Origin: Candidatus Heimdallarchaeota archaeon
GTDB lineage: Archaea > Asgardarchaeota > Heimdallarchaeia > Hodarchaeales > Hodarchaeaceae
Length of the DNA: 38,833 nt
Assembly: GCA_020348965.1 (NCBI GenBank)
Contig: CP070760.1
Coordinates: 2,258,526 to 2,297,358 of the forward strand
Direction of reading: 5' to 3'
Under the pieces are notes generated by a model. That model searched no databases, was not told where the DNA came from, and saw nothing but the letters and a program-made list of their open reading frames with translations. A program made the position numbers and the translations under genes. Shown here piece by piece: positions 16,295 to 38,195 of the stretch (positions are counted from its first letter, which is position 1; each line of letters opens with the position of its first letter).

Positions 16295-17623
16295 ATGGCA
16301 GTAACTACAATGTTTGATAATGGTTTATCACAAGAAGAGTCAGCCACGATTATGGTTAATATTGAAAAAGTCTCTTCTTTTAAAACACCTGCTCAGTGTT
16401 ACGGGCTCACAATAGGTCAGATCACGAGGAATATTCCTCAATTGGTTCTAAGTTGTTATGATGATCAATTATACATCCATGGCGCAGAGGGAACGAGACA
16501 TCATGTATTGGCTTGGTCAACCAAATTCACTAGTCTTGCTATTGGCGACATAACAGGAAAGAACCAGAGATCGCTGATCAGTGGAAGCCTGGACGGAGTG
16601 GTACGAGCCATAAATATGTCTGGTGAACTTGTATGGGAAGTTGAGCTTGGAAAACCAATCAAAAGTTTATCTTTGGGAGATTTTGATAGAGATAAGGCAT
16701 CGGAGATCTTAGTAGCTGTAGCTCAAGTGAATGCAGTTGTTTTACTAAGAAGTACCGGAGAAATTCTTTGGCGAAAAACGTTTCCATCTAAAATCGTTTC
16801 TGCCGCGATTGGGAGTCTTGGTGATGAAGAACAGATCAAAGCGATTGTAATGGAATCAGAAGGACGAATCCATATTCTAGACAAAGTTGGAACTGTAATA
16901 ACAACTATTAACATTGGTAGAAAGATTTCTCACGGTTCTATGTTACAAGCAGGAACATTCAGATTTATAGTAACGTCCTATAAGGATAATATCACTATTT
17001 GGAAATTATCAGATGAACTTAAAGAAATTACTGAGTATAAAGAGAAACAGAGAATTAGAGCAATGACAACTGGAAGACTATTTGATTCTGATAATGATGT
17101 TATTGTCATTCTGACTCGAGATGATCGCGTATCAGTATTAAGGCCAGTAACACATGTTTATGATGAAGAGGGAAAGCTATTATCAAAGGATGAATTCATA
17201 GAAGCTAGGATCGATCTTGATCTGTTACGACCAATTCTTTCCGAGCTTTTCAAAAGTTTCGGGACAAGTGGTATTCCTATTTTCCAGTTGCACAATGGCT
17301 ATATTACGAAAACAGGAGCAAGGATTTCTTATTCACGGTTTTATACTGATTTGCTTAAATTTCAGAGTAAAGGGCAATTGGGAGGGCGTATCGATCACTA
17401 TGGGACACCAGATATCGAAAAAGATGACTTATTAGTGCTTTCAGGTGAAAAATTCTTTTGTATGTCATGTCATCAACAATTACCAGTGTTTGAAGGACAT
17501 TATCAATGTAATCAGTGTTTTCGTTTTTTATGTAAGGAGTGCTATGCAACTCGCGAAACAATTCAGTTCATAGAATGTCCTTTTTGTGAAGCTGATGAAT
17601 CTCATATTCAATTTGTAGAATAA
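16295..17623 (+). CDS. Beta-propeller protein with C-terminal C4C4 (TFIIH p44-like) zinc finger
   Basis: A 442-residue cytosolic protein. Residues about 25-300 form repeated blades of FG-GAP/BBS/ITFG2-like type (LAIGDITGKNQRSLISGS, LSLGDFDRDKASEILVAV, IGSLGDEEQIKAIV), consistent with a beta-propeller. A roughly 80-residue linker follows. The C-terminus then holds eight cysteines at 389, 392, 405, 408, 413, 416, 428 and 431. Their spacing is C-x2-C-x12-C-x2-C-x4-C-x2-C-x11-C-x2-C, with YQC, FLC and CPFC contexts that closely resemble the RING-like C4C4 finger of eukaryotic p44/Ssl1. Cross-brace zinc binding is therefore expected. Propeller plus such a finger suggests a scaffold in a protein complex, possibly with ubiquitin or DNA-repair links, but neither partner is encoded nearby. 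Confidence 0.8.
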   Translation: MAVTTMFDNGLSQEESATIMVNIEKVSSFKTPAQCYGLTIGQITRNIPQLVLSCYDDQLYIHGAEGTRHHVLAWSTKFTSLAIGDITGKNQRSLISGSLDGVVRAINMSGELVWEVELGKPIKSLSLGDFDRDKASEILVAVAQVNAVVLLRSTGEILWRKTFPSKIVSAAIGSLGDEEQIKAIVMESEGRIHILDKVGTVITTINIGRKISHGSMLQAGTFRFIVTSYKDNITIWKLSDELKEITEYKEKQRIRAMTTGRLFDSDNDVIVILTRDDRVSVLRPVTHVYDEEGKLLSKDEFIEARIDLDLLRPILSELFKSFGTSGIPIFQLHNGYITKTGARISYSRFYTDLLKFQSKGQLGGRIDHYGTPDIEKDDLLVLSGEKFFCMSCHQQLPVFEGHYQCNQCFRFLCKECYATRETIQFIECPFCEADESHIQFVE

Positions 17624-25302: not shown

Positions 25303-25338
25303 CTAGGGAATGATTGTCCTTTCAATGAATTGGACATT

Positions 25339-28300
25339 ATGCTTATCCAGAAATTACATCTGTTTTCAATAGGTATACTAGCTATCATAATAATTCCACC
25401 TTTTTCCACTCCTCTCCATGGATCTCCAAGCTTTACTACTTCCGAAACACCACCAATATCTCCACAGCTTAATACACATGACTCATCAAAAGTCAATTCA
25501 TTATTTTCATTTGATCCGACTGAAAAAACACATCTAACTCAACTTTTAAACAAATATGATCCAGATTATCTCCACTTTTTTGATAATTTTCCGATGGGTT
25601 ATGTAACCTTTTCACAACACACATTATCTCTATTGCCGCCAGATCTTTATTCTCGTTTACATATTTCTAAAAAGAGGGAAGTTCTTCCATCTATTGACCA
25701 GCTGCGACCTCAATTAGTGACTCGTGGGGAAACTGCTTCAGCTTTACCTGCAAGTATAATTCGTGCTGAGGACTTATGGGAAAAAGGAATTGATGGTTCA
25801 GGTGTAAAAATTGCGGTGATAGATTCTGGAATTGATGGAACCCCCTCTCATGCTGCTTTTACAGATCGGATTAAAATGGAAAAATCGTTTGTTAAAACAA
25901 AGTTTGGTTATGATACCGAAGAAGACGCCAGAGATTATCATGGTCATGGTACACATGTGGCAGGAATTGCCGCTGGAGGTGAGATCATGAAATATCCTGG
26001 GATTGCTTATGGAGCTGATCTATATAACCTTAAGGCTGCAGGTATGAGTGGTTACTCCACACAGGAGTCTCTTATTGCTGCTATCGATGAAGCGATTAAT
26101 CTAAACGTTGATATCATTTCTATATCACTTGGATTTAGTACGTCATATCCCTGGAGTTCAGAGGATGAATTGTCAATTGCAGTTGATACTGCAGTCGACG
26201 CTGGAATAATCGTGGTTGTGGCCGCTGGTAACGAAGGATCGGAAGGAGAATTTTCTTCTATAAGTTCCCCTGCTTCAGCACGGAAGGCTATTACAGTTGG
26301 AGCAACAAATGAAAGCTATGATGTTGCTTCGTTTTCAAGTCGAGGCCCCTCATTCGGTTATAAAGTCGATCCTGATGTTGTTGCGCCAGGAGTACAAATA
26401 GTCGCTCCTTTGGCCTCTGGGTGTGTAATAGAAAGAGCTTATGAAGCTATAGTAAATGTCGAATTAGAAGATTATATTATTTTTTCGGGGACTAGCATGG
26501 CAGCCCCAGTTGTTGCTGGTGCAGTTGCATTATTAAAACAACAATTTCCTTTAGCTTCTCCTTCAGCTATTAGGGCAGCACTACAAGAATCTGCAATCAA
26601 CATGGGCGAGTCCGTATACCTTCAAGGGAGCGGGCTTGTAGATGTTTCGGCTGCATTTACTTTACTTCAAACAACTCAGAAAGATGATAGCTTTGAAATT
26701 ATCACCTCCCTTCCTAAGGCAAGTGGAAATATTGAATTTGCGGACACACTAACCTTTCCTGGTGATAGAGCTCAAATTAATATTCCTCTTATAACAGGAA
26801 TGGGAGGAACAATCATCTTTGAGATTTCTGATCCCATAAAAGCTTTTGTAACTACTGATAAAGAAGCAGATATCCATTTATCTCAGGCTGGATATTATGA
26901 AAAATCCTTAAACTTCAGTATTCCTTTCAATATCGCTCATGGTACCTATAGAGGTAATTTTAGTTATAAATTCTCTGGAACTAGCTATTCGATACCCATA
27001 ATTATTACTGTCAAGCACCCTCAAGCTAAGATTTATTGGGATACACATTATACTGGAAAAGACGACTCTCCCTTCTTCAACTACAGATCCTTAGATAATT
27101 ACAGTACCTCTATTCTACATTTCGATCTGAATGAGTATGAGACAGCCCTAACTTGGGAAAATTTATCTCAAAATGATATTCTGGTTCTTACCGATCTAGA
27201 ATTTCCGATAAGTAGTAGGGAATTCCAATTTTTATCCGATTTTCATGATCATAATGGATCTATTCTTCTTGTAACATCTGGTTTTCCTTACTATAATCCA
27301 TACCCATATATTAAGCTCTCAGAAGTTCTTGACATTCCAATAGATTTTAGTAATCGTATTGATCTTATCAATTACACTGATGATGGTAGGAGTCGGAGTA
27401 TCATTCCCTTGGTTAATAAAACTTCCGAGATACGTTGGGACTCGGAAAACCCTCTGTTCAAAGGAGTTGATAAACTTCCTCTCGACACAGGAACAGGGAT
27501 TAAAGTCAATCAAAGTAGTCCCCATATTAAATATCTTGTACAAGATAAGAGTTCTTACTCAGTTCTTGCAGCCTATGAACCTCCAAACAAAGGCAAAATT
27601 CTGTTTTTAGGAAGTGACCTTTGGTTACATCACTCTTATCTCTCAACGGTTGATGGTCAGGCTTTTATAAACAATATTTTCACTTGGTTAAAACCTGAAT
27701 ACAATCTAACAATTAATTCACGAATTTCTCAATTTCCTCGCAAGTTAGACCTGTCGGTATATTACTCTAGTCAGTTCTCTCTGTTACTAAGTATCACTTT
27801 CTCGAATGGTACATCTATAGAGACTTTCCTTCATTATAATACCACATTAGAACATCATTACCTGGAACTACCATTAGGAACCCAACCAAGTCAAGATATT
27901 GATATTGGAATAAAGGACAGTAATTCCTTACTTAAGACCTTTAGTCTATTATCATTACCTTCAAATGCTTATCCCAACGTAAGTGAGATACAGGTAGATT
28001 TTCTTGCAACTTCTAATGTTTCGATTCCATCTTGGGCTGATGAATCTTCTGATTCAGTGATAGATCAAGGAATAGATTTTTCAATAATCCATTCTCCATC
28101 AAGTTTAATTTACTCTGTCCTAATGATTTCTAGCCAGCTCGAAGAAACACTAACTGTGTTAGTTCCCCCCATTGACAGCATGTCAGAAATTGTAAGTGAA
28201 ACGAACTTCCTTGTGGACTCACTTACTCAGCAATCGATATCTTGGGAGGTACCTACTAGTTTTTCTACAGGTTATTATTCTTATGAAATCTATGTGTGGT

Positions 28301-29049
28301 TTGAGATAAGTGACAATGTATTTCTTTTGTTGGAGACGGATCAAGGATTTTTCTTCATATCTGACCCTGAACCAACTCTTGATGTACAGAGTAAGATTCG
28401 AGGAAAAACCTTGGATGTTTACAGGGGAATTGAGACTTCTGAAGACGTACCTACTTGGAATCCAGGGGAAACAGTTGAATTGAGATTAATTGGTAAAGAT
28501 ACCAATTCGGATGAATTTGAGGTATATGTCCAGCTAATCCATTATTATTTATGGTTTGCAGATTCTATTGTCTTAGATTTTTTTGATATACCATCTTCTA
28601 CCTCTAATAAAAGTGAAAACATTGGAGCTTTTTCAGTACCCACTCATCCGATTCCTTTGCCTGAAGATGAGGAATATTATGTAGAGATTACAGACGAGCT
28701 ATTTGTCCTCTTAATTTTCGTAAGAGATAAGCAGGGAAATTATAATATTGAGGTTATTTACTTTTTCATAGGATTTTCAAGTTATTTCGATCCAGTAATC
28801 CTTGTTTTTTCAGCTGTACTGGGGATGGTTGTCATATCTGGCGTCGCCATTTTCTTGAGCAGAAGACGACGCTCAAAAACCAGCTATTACTCGGAATCTT
28901 TCAATTATCGTCTCGCTGCTCTTGAAAGGCCGAGTTTCGAATGGAAACAATGCCAAAATTGTGGGACGAGAATTGTACGAGAAGCGTTGTTTTGTAGTTC
29001 ATGTGGAACCCCACTACCCTCTGAAAAGCAGGACGAAAAATTTACCTGA
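25339..29049 (+). CDS. Cell-surface subtilisin-like (S8) protease with C-terminal TM and cytosolic zinc ribbon
   Basis: A 1236-residue protein. A signal peptide (about 1-28) and a propeptide-like region precede the S8 catalytic domain (about 140-420). The triad is complete: D162 (AVIDSGIDG), H203 (GHGTHVAG) and S386 (SGTSMAAP), with oxyanion Asn298 (AAGNEGS). After the protease come about 700 residues of beta-rich extracellular sequence, with a DUF4350/GATase-like stretch (NDILVLTDLEFP, GSILLVTSG) near 615-650. A transmembrane helix follows at about 1152-1174, then the stop-transfer cluster SRRRRS. The last 60 residues should be cytosolic and carry a zinc ribbon, C1205-x2-C1208-x10-C1219-x2-C1222. 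The protease therefore faces outside while a metal-binding tail faces inside. Confidence 0.9.
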   Translation: MLIQKLHLFSIGILAIIIIPPFSTPLHGSPSFTTSETPPISPQLNTHDSSKVNSLFSFDPTEKTHLTQLLNKYDPDYLHFFDNFPMGYVTFSQHTLSLLPPDLYSRLHISKKREVLPSIDQLRPQLVTRGETASALPASIIRAEDLWEKGIDGSGVKIAVIDSGIDGTPSHAAFTDRIKMEKSFVKTKFGYDTEEDARDYHGHGTHVAGIAAGGEIMKYPGIAYGADLYNLKAAGMSGYSTQESLIAAIDEAINLNVDIISISLGFSTSYPWSSEDELSIAVDTAVDAGIIVVVAAGNEGSEGEFSSISSPASARKAITVGATNESYDVASFSSRGPSFGYKVDPDVVAPGVQIVAPLASGCVIERAYEAIVNVELEDYIIFSGTSMAAPVVAGAVALLKQQFPLASPSAIRAALQESAINMGESVYLQGSGLVDVSAAFTLLQTTQKDDSFEIITSLPKASGNIEFADTLTFPGDRAQINIPLITGMGGTIIFEISDPIKAFVTTDKEADIHLSQAGYYEKSLNFSIPFNIAHGTYRGNFSYKFSGTSYSIPIIITVKHPQAKIYWDTHYTGKDDSPFFNYRSLDNYSTSILHFDLNEYETALTWENLSQNDILVLTDLEFPISSREFQFLSDFHDHNGSILLVTSGFPYYNPYPYIKLSEVLDIPIDFSNRIDLINYTDDGRSRSIIPLVNKTSEIRWDSENPLFKGVDKLPLDTGTGIKVNQSSPHIKYLVQDKSSYSVLAAYEPPNKGKILFLGSDLWLHHSYLSTVDGQAFINNIFTWLKPEYNLTINSRISQFPRKLDLSVYYSSQFSLLLSITFSNGTSIETFLHYNTTLEHHYLELPLGTQPSQDIDIGIKDSNSLLKTFSLLSLPSNAYPNVSEIQVDFLATSNVSIPSWADESSDSVIDQGIDFSIIHSPSSLIYSVLMISSQLEETLTVLVPPIDSMSEIVSETNFLVDSLTQQSISWEVPTSFSTGYYSYEIYVWFEISDNVFLLLETDQGFFFISDPEPTLDVQSKIRGKTLDVYRGIETSEDVPTWNPGETVELRLIGKDTNSDEFEVYVQLIHYYLWFADSIVLDFFDIPSSTSNKSENIGAFSVPTHPIPLPEDEEYYVEITDELFVLLIFVRDKQGNYNIEVIYFFIGFSSYFDPVILVFSAVLGMVVISGVAIFLSRRRRSKTSYYSESFNYRLAALERPSFEWKQCQNCGTRIVREALFCSSCGTPLPSEKQDEKFT

Positions 29050-29244: not shown

Positions 29245-32013
29245 ATGCTCAAGTTAGCATTACGAAATGTCACGCGATCAAAGTGGCGTACTTTCCTGTT
29301 AATATTAGGAATCACCCTCACTGTTGCTCTCGAAACAGGAATTGTGGTCACTATTGATACCATTTATGATGACTTTATATTTGATCATAGGAACCATAAT
29401 TATACTGATATAACAGTGAATCCTAAAAATCCTTACAATTGGTTGAATTTAACTACCATTAGAGATTTAACGAGTGAAATAAAGAGTATTTCAGGAGTGA
29501 GACATGCTTCAGAGGTCTATTACATTGCAGCTGATCGTCTTTTTAAAGAAGCTGAGTTTTTTTCTAATGTACTAATTTATGGTATTAATCATAGGTCACA
29601 TCCAGACTTGAAGAGCCTTAATTTAACTGAAGGTTATCGGGAAGTCATTGGAAAATCAATCCTTATTTCGGACAGCATCAAAAACGCAGTGGGTGGCACC
29701 TTTGGACGGAATTTCACCATGAAACCCATTCCAGACCTTGGATTCAAAGGGGCCAATTTGACTATTGGTGGAATTTATTCAGACCCTACTAACTTTGGGA
29801 ACAAAGATGGTTTCACTTTCATATTTGTTGATATTGAGACGATTCGCACTCTTTTTGAGGAAGAAATGATTAATCGAGCTTTAACCTGCGAGATTGATAT
29901 ATCTGTTAATAACCTTGCCAACATTAAGAAAGTGTCAGAAAATATTGAAGATACTATTCGTGATTCTGGTGAGTATTTAGTCTTTGTAGAAAAAGATATC
30001 TCCGAATTACAGGCTATTGGAATTCGTACGTATTCTGTTGCCATGAATCTTGTGATAATTGCTTCATTACTTGTGGAATTCCTATTTACGACAAATTTTC
30101 TGACAATTGCCATTCGAGAACGTCAAAAAGAATATGGCATTCTACAAAGTGTGGGGATTAGCTCAAAGCAACTCATTCTTACTATTACTTATGAGATCTT
30201 AATTTATTCAATCCTGGGTATTATTGCTGGAATCTATGTAGGTGTTGAATTTTCAAATCTCCTTGTAGGTATAGTAGATCAATTTTACGTTAGCCTCGAA
30301 TTTCAAACAATTATTATTAATCCCCCCTCCATTATAGCTATCTCCATTTCAGGAATTGCCGTTGCTTTAATAGCTGGATTATATCCTATATATTTAGCAC
30401 TGAATGTGCCTATTATTCAGAATATTCACACAAGAATGCGAACTGGGAGAATTGTCGAATATGTTGAGAATTGGAGATATTTAGTTTTTGCTGGAATAAT
30501 CCTAACTGCAATAGGATTTTCTTTTGCATTCTTTGTTGGTCCAACCCAGTTTCTAGAGTTTTCGTTAATCTCGAGTCACTTCTTAGTGATCATTTTGTTA
30601 TTCCTAGGTGCATTATTAATTGAAGCTGGAATACTTATTTTTCTACCAAAAGTGGGAGGAAAATTCCTTATTATGTTCAACGATGTTTCACGACAGTTAT
30701 CAATGCGAAATGTAGCCCGAGAATTCCATAAATCACTTTTTACAGTCATGACTGCTACTGTTGCACTAGCCTTCATTATCATGGTTGGAGTTGTCTCTGC
30801 CTCTGTGATAACTAGCGTTCCACAATATTACCAGAGTCAATGGGGTGCTATTGATTTAGTTGTTGAAACCAGCGACACTAATCCTTTTCCCACAAATTTT
30901 ACAGAAGAACTAAATATGAATCCACGCATCAAGAGCTCAGCCTACATTCAAGAAACACGTACAGAGATTGGAGAAGAAAATGGGTATGTTTATGGTGTTG
31001 ACCCACAGCAGTATGCTTTCTTTGGAGAACCTGTTTTTGAATCAATAGTAGAGAACCTAACAGAAGGATTAGATGATCACTCGGATATTAATGTATTAGT
31101 TTCAGATAATCTCTACCGAACCTTGAATGTATCACTAGGAGAAGAAGTATCAGTAAAGGTAGGAACCAATAATTCAGTTAATGTTACGATAGTCGCTGTT
31201 GTTAAAGGAAACGCCTTTTTAGGTAGTGGAAGATACATTTATCTGGCCTCAATTTATTATGGACAGCTTTTCAATTCTACTACCGCTAAATGGTTCATTT
31301 GTGACGTTTTTGACGATATAAAAATTTATGAAGCCCAAACTAATATCACAAAAAGTTATCCGGAATTAAAAGATGTTATCGGTATCCAATATTATCGTAA
31401 CGTGATAAGGAATAGTCTGATCTTCCAAGCGACTCTTTTTCAAGTCCTCTTCCTTGAATCGTTCATTTTAGCAGGGATAGCTCAATTTGTAAGTATTCTA
31501 ATTTCAACTCTTCGAATGGAGAGAGAAATGGGAATTATGCGAAGTATGGGGTTATCAAAGAGAGGGGTTTTCGGTGTTTTCATGGCTGAATCGTTTGCAC
31601 TGGGATTCTCTGCATTAATTTTTGGAGTGGCTGACGGATTATTTGGAGCAGCTCTTATTATCTGGTATATCTCGTTTAGCATTCCAGTTGATCTATTAGC
31701 CAACTTACAACATATTATATTATGGTTAGTAGTTTCGCTACTTTTCTCAATAGCCAGTACTATCATTCCTTCTTATAAGTCAAGTCAAAAAGAAGTTGTA
31801 GCAACCATTGCAGCAAGGCCAATTCGAACGTTTAAGGAAAAGAAAACGGTCAAACTTGAACTCCTAACGTTCATTGATAAAGAAAGAGTATTGGTTCCAG
31901 AGTTCATTAGCATTTTTTTCAAAGTTTTAGTTGTAGCATATTATATTTTCATCTTATTTTTAGCCTTCCTAATAATTAGAGGGATCTTTTTAGGAGGAGG
32001 AATTTCTCTTTGA
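29245..32013 (+). CDS. Large FtsX/MacB-type ABC permease
   Basis: A 922-residue membrane protein with the double-FtsX layout of LolCE/MacB-like permeases. TM1 is near 14-34 (MLKLALRNVTRSKWRTFLLILG, the typical start). A MacB-periplasmic-like ectodomain runs to about 260. The first FtsX block (about 265-395) includes REKQKEYGILQSVGI-like FAIRERQKEYGILQS. A second N-terminal-type segment lies near 485-525 (SMRNVAREFHKSLFTVMTA), with a second ectodomain to about 735. The second FtsX block (about 740-870) includes RMEREMGIMRSMGLSKRG, and a final TM is near 890-915. Such proteins normally work with a cytosolic ABC ATPase in lipoprotein or substrate extrusion or mechanotransmission. No ATPase of that class lies next to it; the Dpp-type ATPases downstream belong to another family. 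Confidence 0.88.
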   Translation: MLKLALRNVTRSKWRTFLLILGITLTVALETGIVVTIDTIYDDFIFDHRNHNYTDITVNPKNPYNWLNLTTIRDLTSEIKSISGVRHASEVYYIAADRLFKEAEFFSNVLIYGINHRSHPDLKSLNLTEGYREVIGKSILISDSIKNAVGGTFGRNFTMKPIPDLGFKGANLTIGGIYSDPTNFGNKDGFTFIFVDIETIRTLFEEEMINRALTCEIDISVNNLANIKKVSENIEDTIRDSGEYLVFVEKDISELQAIGIRTYSVAMNLVIIASLLVEFLFTTNFLTIAIRERQKEYGILQSVGISSKQLILTITYEILIYSILGIIAGIYVGVEFSNLLVGIVDQFYVSLEFQTIIINPPSIIAISISGIAVALIAGLYPIYLALNVPIIQNIHTRMRTGRIVEYVENWRYLVFAGIILTAIGFSFAFFVGPTQFLEFSLISSHFLVIILLFLGALLIEAGILIFLPKVGGKFLIMFNDVSRQLSMRNVAREFHKSLFTVMTATVALAFIIMVGVVSASVITSVPQYYQSQWGAIDLVVETSDTNPFPTNFTEELNMNPRIKSSAYIQETRTEIGEENGYVYGVDPQQYAFFGEPVFESIVENLTEGLDDHSDINVLVSDNLYRTLNVSLGEEVSVKVGTNNSVNVTIVAVVKGNAFLGSGRYIYLASIYYGQLFNSTTAKWFICDVFDDIKIYEAQTNITKSYPELKDVIGIQYYRNVIRNSLIFQATLFQVLFLESFILAGIAQFVSILISTLRMEREMGIMRSMGLSKRGVFGVFMAESFALGFSALIFGVADGLFGAALIIWYISFSIPVDLLANLQHIILWLVVSLLFSIASTIIPSYKSSQKEVVATIAARPIRTFKEKKTVKLELLTFIDKERVLVPEFISIFFKVLVVAYYIFILFLAFLIIRGIFLGGGISL

Positions 32014-32525: not shown

Positions 32526-33638
32526 ATGAAATATAAAGAATATGTTGTTAAAAGATTAATCTTACTGATTCCGGTCATGTTTGGGGTTAGCTTGCTGAGT
32601 TTTGTTTTAAGTAACGCTGTTGGTGATCCAATTGCATCTTACGTTGGCCAGAGTGATGACAAGATATCTGAGGAACGAATGGCACAACTACGACATCAGC
32701 TCGGCTTGGATCAACCATGGTATGTACAATATAGCCGTTATCTTGGGCGCTTGTTACAGGGTGACTTAGGTGAATCAGCATCGTACAACCCTCCATTGCC
32801 TGTTCTAGAAGTGATTGTAATACGGTTTCCCGCCACAGCCGAACTTTCAGTTTTCTCTTTGATCATTGCTATTTTAGTCGGAATACCTCTAGGCATTATT
32901 TCAGCCATAAAAAAAGATAAAGTTCCAGATCATATGTCCCGAATTGCTGCGTTATCAGGGGTCTCAATGCCTATTTTCTGGCTTGGGTTGATGCTTCAAG
33001 TTGTCCTTTTCAATGTTAATAATGTCTTAGACAACTCTGCAATCGGTTTTCAGTTTCCTTATCATGAGAGGTGGACTAGGAATGATTATCCCCAACCCAC
33101 TTCTATTTTGTTTGGAATGGTGCCAGCTTCTGGTTTTATGTTGTTAGATAGCATTCTCTTTCTCCCAGCGGATTTTCCTATACTCGATTCGGTTAATACC
33201 AGTTTTTTAATGTTTATTGATGTTCTACTTCACTTATTTCCTCCTGCTTTCTGTTTATCTTGGTTACAAATGGCCTTGTTCACAAGAATGACTAGAATGT
33301 CAATGCTTGAGACAATGCGTCAAGATTACATTTTATTAGCAAAATCAAAGGGATTAACGGAGAGAATAATAATCTACAGACATGCCCTTAGAAATGCCAT
33401 CATTCCCACTCTAACCGTTGCTGGACTGTCATTAGCTGGATTACTAACAGGAACAGTTCTTACTGAGACTGTCTTTAGCTGGCCAGGGCTAGGAAGGTGG
33501 GCTGTCAATGCTGTGGCAAATTTAGATCTTGCAGCTATCCAAGGATTCGTATTAGTTGCAGCTATACTCTATGTATTAAGTAACTTAGGCGTCGATCTTC
33601 TATATGGATTTATTGACCCTCGGATTAGATATGATTAG
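32526..33638 (+). CDS. Dipeptide/oligopeptide ABC transporter permease (DppB/OppB-like)
   Basis: A 370-residue integral membrane subunit. The N-terminus (KRLILLIPVMFGVSLLSFVLSN...GDP) and the LRHQLGLDQPWYVQYSRYLGRLLQGDLG block are diagnostic of the DppB family. The EAA coupling loop is at about 263-290 (MRQDYILLAKSKGLTERIIIYRHALRNAIIP), and TETVFSWPGLGRWAV follows. The C-terminus GFIDPRIRY is canonical. The extracytoplasmic loop between about 163 and 230 is longer than in typical bacterial DppB by roughly 40-60 residues. It starts the operon and pairs with the DppC-like permease 40-64 bases downstream. The family imports peptides or related solutes; the substrate here is unknown. Confidence 0.92.
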   Translation: MKYKEYVVKRLILLIPVMFGVSLLSFVLSNAVGDPIASYVGQSDDKISEERMAQLRHQLGLDQPWYVQYSRYLGRLLQGDLGESASYNPPLPVLEVIVIRFPATAELSVFSLIIAILVGIPLGIISAIKKDKVPDHMSRIAALSGVSMPIFWLGLMLQVVLFNVNNVLDNSAIGFQFPYHERWTRNDYPQPTSILFGMVPASGFMLLDSILFLPADFPILDSVNTSFLMFIDVLLHLFPPAFCLSWLQMALFTRMTRMSMLETMRQDYILLAKSKGLTERIIIYRHALRNAIIPTLTVAGLSLAGLLTGTVLTETVFSWPGLGRWAVNAVANLDLAAIQGFVLVAAILYVLSNLGVDLLYGFIDPRIRYD

Positions 33639-33690
33639 ATATTTAATTGAATAAAAAAATTGGAAAAACTCATTTAATTTGTCAAAACTT

Positions 33691-33696
33691 GGAGGT
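33691..33696 (+). promoter_or_regulatory. Strong Shine-Dalgarno sequence deciding the DppC-like start
   Basis: GGAGGT is exactly six bases ahead of TTG 33703, whereas nothing comparable precedes the in-frame TTG at 33679. This element itself lies within the longer frame and argues for the shorter protein. Confidence 0.6.
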
Positions 33697-33702
33697 TTAA
33701 GA

Positions 33703-35700
33703 TTGCAGAGCGGATTTGAATATGATGTAGATATTTACGATGAAGAAATTCCTTCAGAGGTCTTTAGTTTTAAAGAGTCTTTGAGAGCACGGTTTAGGGA
33801 ACTCAGACATAGTGTTTCTCTTTTGAAGAGGAGTCCTCTTTTCATTTTTGGTTTTTTCACAATAATGTTTTTAGTTGCCTTAGCAGTATTTGCTCCCTTT
33901 ATTACAAACTTTGGTCCCTCGGAATTTGCCATTGATGACATATTGCATGTCAATTATATAAAACAACCTCCTGGGTGGAGAGATAAAGTAACAAAACAGA
34001 TAGCATGGTCTGAAATAAATGATTTATCGACAGATTTTGGTATTGATCCCAACTTAGCTGTCCGCAGTTGTATTGTAGATTTAAACAATGATAGTTTAGA
34101 AGATATACTAGTGGGAACTAACTCAAGTCAACTTTTATTTTACGAGAATATTGGATCTGATGACCCAGTAAATCCAAATAAATGGACTTTAAGCAGTACC
34201 CTCACATTTCCAACAATTCCTGAAAATATAACAGGGTTGGTAAGTCCTGCAGCCGGTGATATTAATAATGATAGTGTTACTGATGTAGTGATTGGCGGTA
34301 ATGATGGGAAAATCTACCAAACCTTGAACAATGGTACTCCAGGCTCTCCAGAATGGACAGATTTTTCGCTTATGTATGACATAGATGGTGAAGAACTCAG
34401 ATATGCAGGTCAAGCCCATCCTACATTAGTAGACTATAATCATGATAATCAAACTGATTTAGTAATAGGGTCTAGTGATTATGCAATCGATGTCTATCTT
34501 TGGGAGTACGATGTCTTTCAAAGGGCATGGGGATTTGAGTTACAATCTAATATGCCCAAGGACATTAAGAACAGAAAACTTAGTTTAGATGGAAGTTACG
34601 GGTCTGGAGGAGAGTGGGTCGATACCCCATTAGGAAGTGGGTCTGTAAGAGTAAACTTTATACATATCAAACCTGATAGCGTCAAATACTGGGATATTGC
34701 GGTTATTTTCGATTCAGGTGATTATGAGTTCTTTACAGCAACTGACATCGTCTCAAATCCAAATTATGTGATGCTCGATAAATCAAAACCCTCTGCTAGA
34801 TTCGATTTTCCTATAGTGGAAGCAGAAATATCTTTTGACTTCCTGTTTTATGATTATATTATTGACGTTAGTGCAGGTAATATCACGTTTGAAACTGAAG
34901 TCAATCAATCTGAATTTATTGAAGGTGGGGAGAACCAAACTGAGATAATCAAATTAAGTAGATTATTGGAGTTTAAACCAGGAGGAACTGTTGTCTACTC
35001 TTTCCAATTCCTCGAAGAGGATGGTAGAGTCCACTATTTTGGAACAGATCAGCAGGGAGGGGATATCTATAGTAGATGTATCTGGGCGCTTCAGACAGAT
35101 CTTATTTTAGCCATCTGGGTTGTTGCAATTGCAGTTGTTATAGGTACTATTATTGGTGCTATTGCTGGTTATTTCGGTGGATGGATTGATCAATTGATTA
35201 TGCGAATAACTGATGTATTCTTTGCTTTTCCTGGATTAATACTAGCAATGGCTATTGCAGCTGCCCTCGGGAGAAGCATGTTTAATCTATCGATAGCTCT
35301 GATCGCCGTATGGTGGGCTGGATATGCCCGAATTGCTCGTGGCCAAGTCATATCCGAGAAGAGTCGATTATATGTGGAAGCAGCTAGAGCCGTTGGTTTA
35401 GGGAATAGTCGAATAATCTTCCGACACGTATTACCAAATAGTATCTACCCATTATTGGTTGCTGCTACATTAGATCTTGGAGGTGTGGTACTCACCGCGG
35501 CTGGGTTGAGTTTTATCGGTTTCGGTGCAAACCCAGGTGATGCTGAACTGGGTAGAATGATCGCTGATGGAAGAGACTACTTCATCAAATCACCCTGGCT
35601 TGTCTTTTTCCCTGGTTTCTTTATATTCTTAATTGTACTTGCCTTTAATCTGATTGGCGATGGAATCAGAGATGTCATGGATCCGAAGCTTCGTCGGTGA
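33703..35700 (+). CDS. DppC/OppC-like permease with large FG-GAP-containing ectodomain
   Basis: A 665-residue permease, about twice the family norm of roughly 300. A cytosolic N-terminus and TM1 (about 44-70) are followed by about 370 inserted extracytoplasmic residues before the canonical FGTDQQGGDIYSR motif (446-458) and a complete DppC core. The core includes the EAA loop YVEAARAVGLGNSRIIFRHVLPNSIYP and a C-terminus VMDPKLRR. The insert contains three Ca-loop-like FG-GAP motifs at 126-134 (DLNNDSLED), 186-194 (DINNDSVTD) and 244-252 (DYNHDNQTD), then a second beta-rich unit. In GTDxxGRD the Arg is Gly here. GGAGGT (33691-33696) sits six bases before TTG 33703, so I choose that start over TTG 33679. 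Confidence 0.9.
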   Translation: MQSGFEYDVDIYDEEIPSEVFSFKESLRARFRELRHSVSLLKRSPLFIFGFFTIMFLVALAVFAPFITNFGPSEFAIDDILHVNYIKQPPGWRDKVTKQIAWSEINDLSTDFGIDPNLAVRSCIVDLNNDSLEDILVGTNSSQLLFYENIGSDDPVNPNKWTLSSTLTFPTIPENITGLVSPAAGDINNDSVTDVVIGGNDGKIYQTLNNGTPGSPEWTDFSLMYDIDGEELRYAGQAHPTLVDYNHDNQTDLVIGSSDYAIDVYLWEYDVFQRAWGFELQSNMPKDIKNRKLSLDGSYGSGGEWVDTPLGSGSVRVNFIHIKPDSVKYWDIAVIFDSGDYEFFTATDIVSNPNYVMLDKSKPSARFDFPIVEAEISFDFLFYDYIIDVSAGNITFETEVNQSEFIEGGENQTEIIKLSRLLEFKPGGTVVYSFQFLEEDGRVHYFGTDQQGGDIYSRCIWALQTDLILAIWVVAIAVVIGTIIGAIAGYFGGWIDQLIMRITDVFFAFPGLILAMAIAAALGRSMFNLSIALIAVWWAGYARIARGQVISEKSRLYVEAARAVGLGNSRIIFRHVLPNSIYPLLVAATLDLGGVVLTAAGLSFIGFGANPGDAELGRMIADGRDYFIKSPWLVFFPGFFIFLIVLAFNLIGDGIRDVMDPKLRR

Positions 35701-35742
35701 ATTGTATTATCAAATCAGTGATATTGAGGAGAACTGAGATAT

Positions 35743-36858
35743 ATGACTAGCGTTATAGACCAAGACCAAGAAAAGATCTTAAAAATCAGAGGATTACGAG
35801 TTCATTTCTACACTTTTGAAGGTGTTGTTAAGGCTCTTGATGGAATAACCTTTGATGTGTTTAAAGGAGAAAGTCTGGGACTAGTTGGAGAAACTGGTTG
35901 TGGGAAATCTGTTACTGTTAGATCAATTATGAGATTAATCGAAGAACCTGGAAAAATCGTCGAAGGGGAAATCGACTATCATGGGAAGGATATTTTAACA
36001 ATGAAAGATAAAGAAGTTCGTAGAATCCGTGGAAAGAAGATTGCTATGATATTTCAGGATCCTATGACTTTTCTTAATCCTGTCCTTCGAGTTGGTGATC
36101 AGGTATCAGAAGTTTTTCTTTTACATCAGGAAATTCCTGAAGCCAAGAGGTCAGATGGTAAAATCGATAAAAAGAAGCTGAAGGGACTATTACGTACAAA
36201 AGTCACTGACATCTTTAAAATTGTCCGACTACCAGATGTCGAAGAATTATATGACCGGTATCCCCATGAACTCTCAGGTGGTATGCGCCAACGAGTTATG
36301 ATTGCCATGGCTATTGCAAGTAACCCAGACATCATGATTGCTGACGAAGCAACTACGGCCCTGGATGTTACTATTCAAGCACAGATCCTCGATCTTCTTA
36401 ATGACCTTAAGGATGAACTGCGTACAACTTTGATTTTCGTTACACATAATTTAGGCATTATTGCGAATATGTGTGATCGGGTGATCGTATTGTATGGTGG
36501 TCAGATAGTAGAAGTTGCTGAAACAGTAGAACTATTCCAAAAATCAATTCATCCATATACAAGAGGACTTTTAAAAGCTATCCCGTTGATCCATCGTCCT
36601 AAACGAGAATTGGATGCTATAAGTGGTGTGGTTCCAAATTTAGTTACCCCTCCAGAAGGATGTAGATTTCATCCACGTTGTTATATGGCTGCTGAAAACC
36701 CAGAAATAAAAGAACGACTGTGCGTTAAAGAAAGACCAGATCCCTATGAATATTTTCCTGGACATTTCGTTGCTTGCCATGTCCGAAGATTAGAAAGAGT
36801 AGATGAAGATGCAGGTCTAAAACCAGAGACTGTCTATGAGAAAATTGAAACCCAATAA
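35743..36858 (+). CDS. Dipeptide/oligopeptide ABC transporter ATPase (DppD/OppD-like)
   Basis: A 371-residue nucleotide-binding subunit. Walker A GETGCGKS is at 49-56, the Q-loop at Q105 (IFQDPMTFLNP), the signature LSGGM at 177-181 and Walker B IMIADEAT at 197-204. The H-loop His235 lies in FVTHNLG. The C-terminal oligo_HPY region has four Cys (307, 313, 327, 345), in the arrangement known to hold a 4Fe-4S cluster in some DppD proteins. A short lysine-rich insertion (about 135-150, DGKIDKKKLKG) extends the helical subdomain. It hydrolyses ATP to drive transport as a heterodimer with the following DppF-like subunit. The usual Pro of the Walker B DEPT is Ala, which is common in this subfamily. 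Confidence 0.93.
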   Translation: MTSVIDQDQEKILKIRGLRVHFYTFEGVVKALDGITFDVFKGESLGLVGETGCGKSVTVRSIMRLIEEPGKIVEGEIDYHGKDILTMKDKEVRRIRGKKIAMIFQDPMTFLNPVLRVGDQVSEVFLLHQEIPEAKRSDGKIDKKKLKGLLRTKVTDIFKIVRLPDVEELYDRYPHELSGGMRQRVMIAMAIASNPDIMIADEATTALDVTIQAQILDLLNDLKDELRTTLIFVTHNLGIIANMCDRVIVLYGGQIVEVAETVELFQKSIHPYTRGLLKAIPLIHRPKRELDAISGVVPNLVTPPEGCRFHPRCYMAAENPEIKERLCVKERPDPYEYFPGHFVACHVRRLERVDEDAGLKPETVYEKIETQ

Positions 36859-36899
36859 TTTCAAGAGATATTACTAGTTAAAATGAAAGGTGTTCTTAA

Positions 36900-38195
36900 G
36901 TGGCTCAAGCCGATGTAGAAGAAAGTTCAGTTGAACTTAAAGAAGAAGTAGAAACTCCCGACGAAGATAACCTGATAAAAGTGCGAAACCTCGTAAAATT
37001 CTTTCCAATTACTGGCGGACTCTTAAGTAAAGTAATTGGATACGTTCATGCTGTTGACCACATTTCTTTTGACGTTCCCAAGGGAAAGACAATTGGGGTT
37101 GTCGGGGAATCTGGATGTGGGAAAACTACGCTTGGACGAACTATCTTGCGACTAGTCGAACCTACATCAGGTGAAATCTATTTTGACAATCATGATATAC
37201 CAAACTTACCTTCTAACCAAATGAGGCATCTACGAAGGCGAATGCAGATCGTTTTCCAAGATCCTTATGCAAGTTTAAATCCACGAATGATGGTCAAAGA
37301 TATCTTATCAGAACCCCAAATGGTTCATAGGAGGATTATCCAGCGAAAATTCTCAATCCCTGCATTTGTTTTTCTGCTTATTACTTTCCTAGGTTTTATT
37401 GTTTCACTTATCATTAATCAATTTGGGAGTGCTATTGACCTTTCATTACCAGGGGTTTGGTCCTTTTCAATTCCACTTCCGTCCTTCTCACCATCTGACC
37501 TTGATTTTCTGAACTCGTCTTTATTCCCTGTTGTTATTTACTCGTCTTTTGCCTTATTTTTACTCTTTCTTTTTCTAGCTTACTCTGTACGGAAGGGTCC
37601 ATCACAAAATCAGATAAATGCCTATATTCTTCGTATTCTTCGAGAAGTTGGCCTTGACAAAGAGCACTTAAACCGTTTTCCTCATGAATTTAGCGGTGGA
37701 CAGAGACAACGAATATGTATTGCACGAGCTCTTGTTTTAAATCCAGATTTCTTAGTCCTTGATGAACCAACTGCTTCCGTTGATGTTTCAGTCCAGGCAA
37801 GAGTTCTTAATTTACTAAAAGGATTGCAAAAGAAGAGAAATTTGACCTATATGTTCATAAGTCACGACCTCTCTGTAGTGACTCACATGAGTGATATAGT
37901 TATGGTGATGTATCTCGGAAAAATTATGGAAATTGGACCGAAGAACATTTTTACTTTGGCTGCATCCAAGGTACATCCTTATACGTCAGCCCTTGGTGGA
38001 GCACTTCCTGTTCCTGACCCTACCTATTCAAAAAAGGCAATTATTCTTAAAGGAGATGTACCTAGTCCAGCGAATCCTCCTCCTGGGTGTGTTTTCCATA
38101 CTAGATGTCCTGAAGCGCAAAAGATTTGCACTACAGATGAACCAGAGTTAAAACATAAAGAACATGGCCACTACATTGCGTGTCATTTCAGATAA
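36900..38195 (+). CDS. DppF/OppF-like ATPase with transmembrane hairpin inserted in the helical subdomain
   Basis: A 431-residue ABC ATPase. Walker A GESGCGKT is at 69-76, the Q-loop at Q120 (VFQDPYASLNPRM), the signature FSGGQRQR at 264-271, Walker B FLVLDEPT at 284-291 and the H-loop at His322. An oligo_HPY tail has Cys 397, 403, 410 and 428. All catalytic motifs are intact. Between the Q-loop and signature, about 80-100 extra residues (about 145-240) include two strongly hydrophobic segments (153-173 and 209-229). They are separated by a Ser/Pro-rich loop of about 35 residues, so the helical subdomain is apparently tethered by a membrane hairpin. I know of no typical DppF with this. GTG 36900 is preceded by AAGGTG. 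Confidence 0.9.
   Translation: MAQADVEESSVELKEEVETPDEDNLIKVRNLVKFFPITGGLLSKVIGYVHAVDHISFDVPKGKTIGVVGESGCGKTTLGRTILRLVEPTSGEIYFDNHDIPNLPSNQMRHLRRRMQIVFQDPYASLNPRMMVKDILSEPQMVHRRIIQRKFSIPAFVFLLITFLGFIVSLIINQFGSAIDLSLPGVWSFSIPLPSFSPSDLDFLNSSLFPVVIYSSFALFLLFLFLAYSVRKGPSQNQINAYILRILREVGLDKEHLNRFPHEFSGGQRQRICIARALVLNPDFLVLDEPTASVDVSVQARVLNLLKGLQKKRNLTYMFISHDLSVVTHMSDIVMVMYLGKIMEIGPKNIFTLAASKVHPYTSALGGALPVPDPTYSKKAIILKGDVPSPANPPPGCVFHTRCPEAQKICTTDEPELKHKEHGHYIACHFR

Follow-up and report, generated by a model that had tools for sequence, protein, structure and literature searches.

Locus and operon organisation

We analysed a window of 38,833 nucleotides from the MAG of a Hodarchaeales archaeon, an archaeal assembly of 3.16 Mb. 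A Dpp operon with the gene order dppB-dppC-dppD-dppF lies towards the end of the window (Table 1), and a 100-N scaffold gap begins at the window's last base, leaving 638 nt between the end of dppF and the end of the contig. This gene order, together with oligo_HPY C-termini carrying four Cys, is that of a DppBCDF importer, and as read from its sequence the locus is a Dpp/Opp-type peptide importer composed of DppB, DppC, DppD and DppF.

Table 1 Features of the Dpp operon and of the DppC insert in the window.
Feature	Position	Strand	Basis or remark
Dpp operon, order dppB-dppC-dppD-dppF	32526–38195	+	
dppB, permease, 370 aa	32526–33638	+	BPD_transp_1 1e-37
dppC with FG-GAP ectodomain, 665 aa	33703–35700	+	probable TTG start
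DppC TM1 region, residues ~39–72	33817–33918	+	hydropathy, OppC_N match
TM1–TM2 insert of DppC (predicted extracellular), ~370–376 residues, five FG-GAP-type repeats	33913–35040	+	
Repeat 1, loop DLNNDSLED 34078–34104	34006–34182	+	
Repeat 2, loop DINNDSVTD 34258–34284	34183–34353	+	hhalign to repeat 1 E 1.9e-7
Repeat 3, loop DYNHDNQTD 34432–34458	34354–34527	+	hhalign to repeats 1 and 2 E ~1e-8
Repeat 4, degenerate loop HIKPDSVKYWD, conserved FDSG turn	34528–34761	+	marginal similarity to other repeats, best E 0.005
Repeat 5	34762–35040	+	profile match to repeat 1, E 1e-4
DppC transporter core, TM2–TM6, from GTDQQGGD (35041–35064)	35041–35697	+	
dppD, ATPase, C-terminal 4-Cys motif	35743–36858	+	ABC_tran 2.2e-27, oligo_HPY 1.1e-18
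dppF, ATPase, 431 aa	36900–38195	+	ABC_tran 1.5e-33, oligo_HPY 3.4e-14

Upstream of the operon, the window encodes a large secreted subtilase of 1239 aa (25330–29049, +), in which a C-terminal TM segment is followed by a zinc ribbon, and an FtsX/MacB-like protein (29245–32013, +). The latter is also found near the Dpp operon in four MAGs of the same genus (G001, G010, G002 and G011; 54–56% identity), and it is possibly linked to the operon in function. Further upstream (16295–17623, +) lies a gene for a beta-propeller protein with matches to Beta-prop_ACSF4, PQQ_2 and BBS2_Mid and a Cys-rich, RING-like C terminus, without an apparent leader or TM segment.

The window's DppF is itself unusual, carrying at residues ~138–245, after the Q-loop (VFQDP 118) and ahead of the signature (FSGG 264), a hydrophobic insert that consists of two strongly hydrophobic TM-like segments (149–179 and 204–231). 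Its orthologues in G001, G002, G011 and G012, the last from another Hodarchaeales genus, are 345–357 aa long and lack these segments; to our knowledge, it would be highly unusual for an ATPase domain to contain a membrane hairpin. Paralogous DppFs of 523 aa and 526 aa in two further genomes, G004 and G007 (L055 153–1724 and L056 359–1939, both on the minus strand), contain some four TM-like segments placed after Walker A and before the Q-loop, a different site from that in the window's DppF.

The dppC gene and its permease core

The dppC reading frame is free of stops from 33679 to 35700 and opens at a TTG at 33679; the TTG at 33703 is the likelier start, because it is preceded by GGAGG at ~33690. 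Searching the product with hmmscan gave four Pfam matches, all above the Pfam cut-offs: OppC_N (3.2e-6) at the N terminus, FG-GAP (3.6e-10, in three stretches) and FG-GAP_3 (8.2e-10) in the middle, and BPD_transp_1 (1.4e-34) at the C terminus. Over its whole length, the core (residues 440–664) aligns with E. coli DppC (8z1v_B, 2.6e-52), and the protein has the features of the DppC/OppC family, namely OppC_N and BPD_transp_1, a GTDxxGxD motif ahead of TM2 and an EAA coupling region, with YVEAARAVGLGNSRIIFRHVLPN present. It departs from the family in lacking a short outward loop between TM1 and TM2, a feature that is usual for DppC/OppC without being strictly defining.

An array of FG-GAP-type repeats between TM1 and TM2

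The loop before GTD comprises 370 residues in the window's DppC and 327–348 in four full orthologues, compared with 11–27 in 19 ordinary Asgard DppCs, confirming the original prediction of an insert of ~370 residues between TM1 and GTDQQGGD. The three FG-GAP-like DxNxDxxxD loops predicted within it are likewise borne out: the insert scores 39.9 bits against PF01839 (cut-off 22.1) and 39.6 against PF13517 (cut-off 26.9), and it contains three perfect D-x-N-x-D-x-x-x-D loops, whereas the chance of at least three, estimated by shuffling the residues of the insert 50,000 times, was P = 1e-4 (mean 0.06 loops).

Aligned with its orthologues, the insert resolves into five units of ~57–80 residues in their compact forms, most of which begin near W-(T/S)-x-F. 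The second beta-rich unit of the original prediction is therefore best interpreted as two further, degenerate repeats (4 and 5) that would continue one array, since repeat 5 matches repeat 1 and its loop is intact in the orthologues L078 and L079 (DFNQDNMSD and DFNHDNISD, respectively). In the window, this fifth loop has been lost through an insertion of ~30 residues (about 34867–34959).

Membrane side, fold and calcium

A K/R-rich stretch, marking the cytoplasmic side, directly precedes TM1 of DppC. The insert holds 9 N-X-S/T sequons against 3.35 expected (P 0.003), and all five full-length orthologues show enrichment of their inserts (7–10 observed against 2.7–3.7, P 0.0003–0.013) that does not reach significance in the rest of the protein. 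Taken with the established topology of DppC (PMC12136057), these sequence features place the insert outside the cell.

AlphaFold modelling with eight sequences produced confident beta meanders for repeats 1–3 only (ectodomain residues 41–210), with pLDDT of 60–92 per ten-residue block in these repeats and below 50 elsewhere, an overall value of 53 and a pTM of 0.53; the model of full-length DppC, with a mean pLDDT of 42.6, was too poor to position the ectodomain relative to the membrane. A Foldseek search with the partial ectodomain model returned KICSTOR chains as the best PDB matches (E 2e-4) and integrin alphaV, PVL lectin and CRTAC1 as weaker ones; apart from the KICSTOR chains, the recognisable matches are mostly propellers. 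Since TM-scores were ~0.3 on a low-confidence model, these matches do not establish a propeller fold, and a sequence search of the PDB with the ectodomain profile gave nothing at E ≤ 0.1. The predicted propeller-like fold of the repeats is thus suggested by the models, with confident modelling limited to repeats 1–3. Given its family, the ectodomain is probably a small beta-propeller, and we infer from the DxNxDxxxD loops that it binds calcium.

Distribution and origin of the FG-GAP permease

We found the FG-GAP DppC in five other Hodarchaeales MAGs, namely the four congeneric ones and G012, in which the gene is split over two contigs. The recurrence of the same architecture in these MAGs, which span two genera, rules out an assembly chimera. 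In a search of 228 Asgard genomes with an ectodomain profile, the permeases of this clade, whether complete or split, were retrieved at E ≤ 3e-26, while the best match in a genome outside it reached 3.5e-15 and the loci inspected there encode secreted proteins with FG-GAP repeats instead of permeases. When 84,980 species were scanned with one conserved peptide pattern, a search that is not exhaustive, seven ectodomain loci emerged, all in MAGs of the already known set. Mapping the insert across genomes, as the original prediction had proposed, hence assigns it to a single Hodarchaeales clade of six genomes and two genera, and a general feature of archaeal DppC proteins is rejected for this type of insert by the confinement of permease matches to that clade within the genomes searched.

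A phylogeny built from 40 permease cores groups the FG-GAP permeases into a single clade (support 100/99). The sister of this clade (100/100), from another Asgard family, has a 61% identical permease with a loop of 15–22 residues, which indicates that the FG-GAP domain was gained in the FG-GAP clade. The sister permeases L016–L019, which have no insert, carry ~130 extra N-terminal residues with 2–3 predicted extra TM segments before the usual TM1.

Two genomes, G002 and G011, additionally encode free-standing copies of the ectodomain (L082 2370–3629 and L083 3591–4769), which are 51–61% identical to the DppC domain of these genomes, begin with a hydrophobic leader and end in a membrane anchor, suggesting that the ectodomain is an autonomous module. 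On the contig of L082, the free-standing FG-GAP protein is bordered by a pair of small secreted proteins that match no Pfam family (L045). The papers searched gave no description of this FG-GAP permease, with those on FG-GAP domains, ABC transporters and archaea judged by their titles. The clade-restricted architecture is a real novelty of domain combination, as judged within Asgard archaea, and is assembled from known parts.

Other large inserts in Asgard DppC proteins

Other Asgard DppCs, belonging to other permease clades, carry inserts of 184–432 residues in the same TM1–TM2 loop (L047, L048, L049, L050–L053, L054, L055–L058, L059 and L005). None gave an FG-GAP match where tested, and the L059 insert showed a weak match to CBM_4_9. 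Profile comparison revealed no significant similarity to the FG-GAP insert (probability ≤ 10%), which speaks against their being diverged forms of it, and none between the groups of these inserts. The expectation that an insert of this kind would be uncommon among archaeal DppCs therefore holds for the FG-GAP type, which is confined to one clade, and fails for large inserts as such, which are frequent in Asgard archaea. From these sequences, the loop seems to be a recurrent insertion site, and very remote homology among the inserts is possible. Elsewhere in the window's genome, a DppB-type permease (L071 8185–10572, −; 795 aa), lengthened at its N terminus by a long multi-TM stretch, adjoins a DppC with a 197-residue insert.

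Several mutually dissimilar inserts at one place are what would be expected if the TM1–TM2 loop of DppC simply tolerates insertions and the FG-GAP insert were a near-neutral or purely structural elaboration. Such a reading also agrees with the faster evolution of the ectodomain, which is about 30–44% identical to that of the window among orthologues, compared with 78–87% for the core. However, the domain has been kept in six genomes of two genera with its repeats recognisable, and free-standing copies have been retained in two of them; we consider this explanation improbable, and the least likely of those weighed here.

Binding proteins beside the operon

The original prediction offered the permease itself as a built-in receptor, and one version of this idea is that the ectodomain acts as a peptide receptor replacing or supplementing a soluble binding protein, as in GlnPQ or OpuA. 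The domain adjoins the translocation mouth, and no gene for a substrate-binding protein (SBP) is visible within the window; this absence means little, because the contig stops so soon after dppF. If the domain had replaced the SBP, SBP genes would be expected to be missing, yet four relatives carry an SBP_bac_5 gene beside the operon: that of G012 shares its strand with dppB and the FG-GAP dppC and lies just upstream of them; that of G001 adjoins the operon and is convergent with it; and those of G002 and G011 are each part of a convergent SBP-dppB′ pair. The SBPs of G002 and G011 are 35–37% identical to that of G001, so the operon-side SBP differs between lineages, and the window's genome encodes elsewhere a homologue 51% identical to the G001 SBP.

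The insert itself showed no match to SBP families at E ≤ 10 with hmmscan, which excludes it as an SBP, and the window's DppC is not a permease–SBP fusion of the GlnPQ/OpuA type. The alignment of DppB with E. coli DppB (8z1v_A, 2.8e-74) is full-length and includes the scoop region, which follows TM1 and precedes the next helix; this region is retained, although the E41–R42 pair is not conserved. In E. coli, the scoop region of DppB enters and contacts DppA, and DppA caps DppB and DppC, whose TM1–TM2 regions face the periplasm (PMC12136057). The SBP genes kept in four relatives and the retained DppB scoop weaken the built-in receptor, which we now regard as quite unlikely.

Proposed role of the ectodomain

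Because DppA caps DppB and DppC at that face (PMC12136057), a domain placed between TM1 and TM2 would adjoin a docked SBP. We propose that DppBCDF operates together with a membrane-anchored SBP_bac_5 binding protein encoded by a separate gene, and that a VCBS/FG-GAP domain was inserted into the outward TM1–TM2 loop of DppC in one Hodarchaeales lineage. In that position, at the side of the translocation mouth, the ectodomain would be an accessory docking platform that retains a partner protein; the first candidate for this partner is the cognate SBP, by analogy with the contact of MalF-P2 with MalE. That the ectodomain is such a platform in an SBP-dependent importer is a tentative reading, plausible but somewhat short of probable, and the one we favour over surface attachment, a built-in receptor and near-neutral elaboration. 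Against it stand the low identity of the ectodomains to that of the window (~30–44%) and the loss of the fifth loop in the window's copy, owing to which a conserved docking interface is not evident. The lack of an SBP gene in the window, short as the contig is beyond dppF, and the divergence of the operon-side SBPs between lineages also count against it.

Surface attachment is a less likely possibility, in which the FG-GAP repeats would bind S-layer glycans or another extracellular polymer or protein and so hold the importer where peptides are released. Integrins, which are of FG-GAP type, are adhesion receptors, and potential glycosylation sites are abundant in the insert. The membrane-anchored free copies of the domain and the secreted subtilase encoded upstream in the window would fit the same picture, but no subtilase gene was found beside the Dpp operon in the loci of the sampled relatives. 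Sugar binding is known from Tachylectin-2 and PVL lectin of the VCBS supercluster (PMC8023676), although residues of a ligand pocket are not identifiable in the present low-confidence model of the ectodomain.

A broader proposal, which we consider rather unlikely, is that a calcium-dependent, integrin-type module of the permease recognises a ligand of its own (a peptide-bearing polymer, a protein or a glycan) and couples surface capture to transport, the TM1–TM2 loop being a general Asgard slot for receptor or docking domains. The specificity of type I peptide importers is thought to come from free or anchored binding proteins, and a permease with its own calcium-loop ectodomain would represent an additional means by which peptide uptake is localised or tuned. 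Hodarchaeales are known mainly from MAGs; the DppC ectodomain would bear on how they feed on proteins, and a loop that repeatedly receives different large domains would be doing so in the archaea nearest to eukaryotes.

Comparison with known systems

In its TM2–TM6 core, the window's DppC resembles E. coli DppC (PDB 8z1v; PMC12136057) and the DppC/OppC chains of M. tuberculosis (8wd9, 8j5q), but these chains of known structure are 287–302 aa long, with a short TM1–TM2 region and no FG-GAP domain. The DppCs L047, L049, L050, L058 and L059 share with it an insert in the same extracellular loop, of an apparently unrelated type. In its Pfam match and its DxNxDxxxD loops, the insert is like the FG-GAP/VCBS proteins integrin alpha, PVL lectin, CRTAC1 and the propeller subunits of KICSTOR; it differs from integrin alpha, with seven repeats, in having five and in sitting in a permease loop.

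GlnPQ and OpuA, like the window's DppC, hold a receptor-sized extracellular domain covalently within the permease, but their fused domains are SBPs, whereas that of DppC is an FG-GAP domain with a separate SBP encoded in relatives. A parallel to the proposed docking role is MalF-P2 of the maltose importer, also an extra outward domain in a permease loop of a type I importer, for which works cited in PMC3150292 provide a precedent of SBP contact by a permease domain. MalF-P2 differs from the ectodomain both in the kind of domain and in the loop that carries it, and its contact with the SBP, established there, is a candidate function for the ectodomain of the window's DppC.
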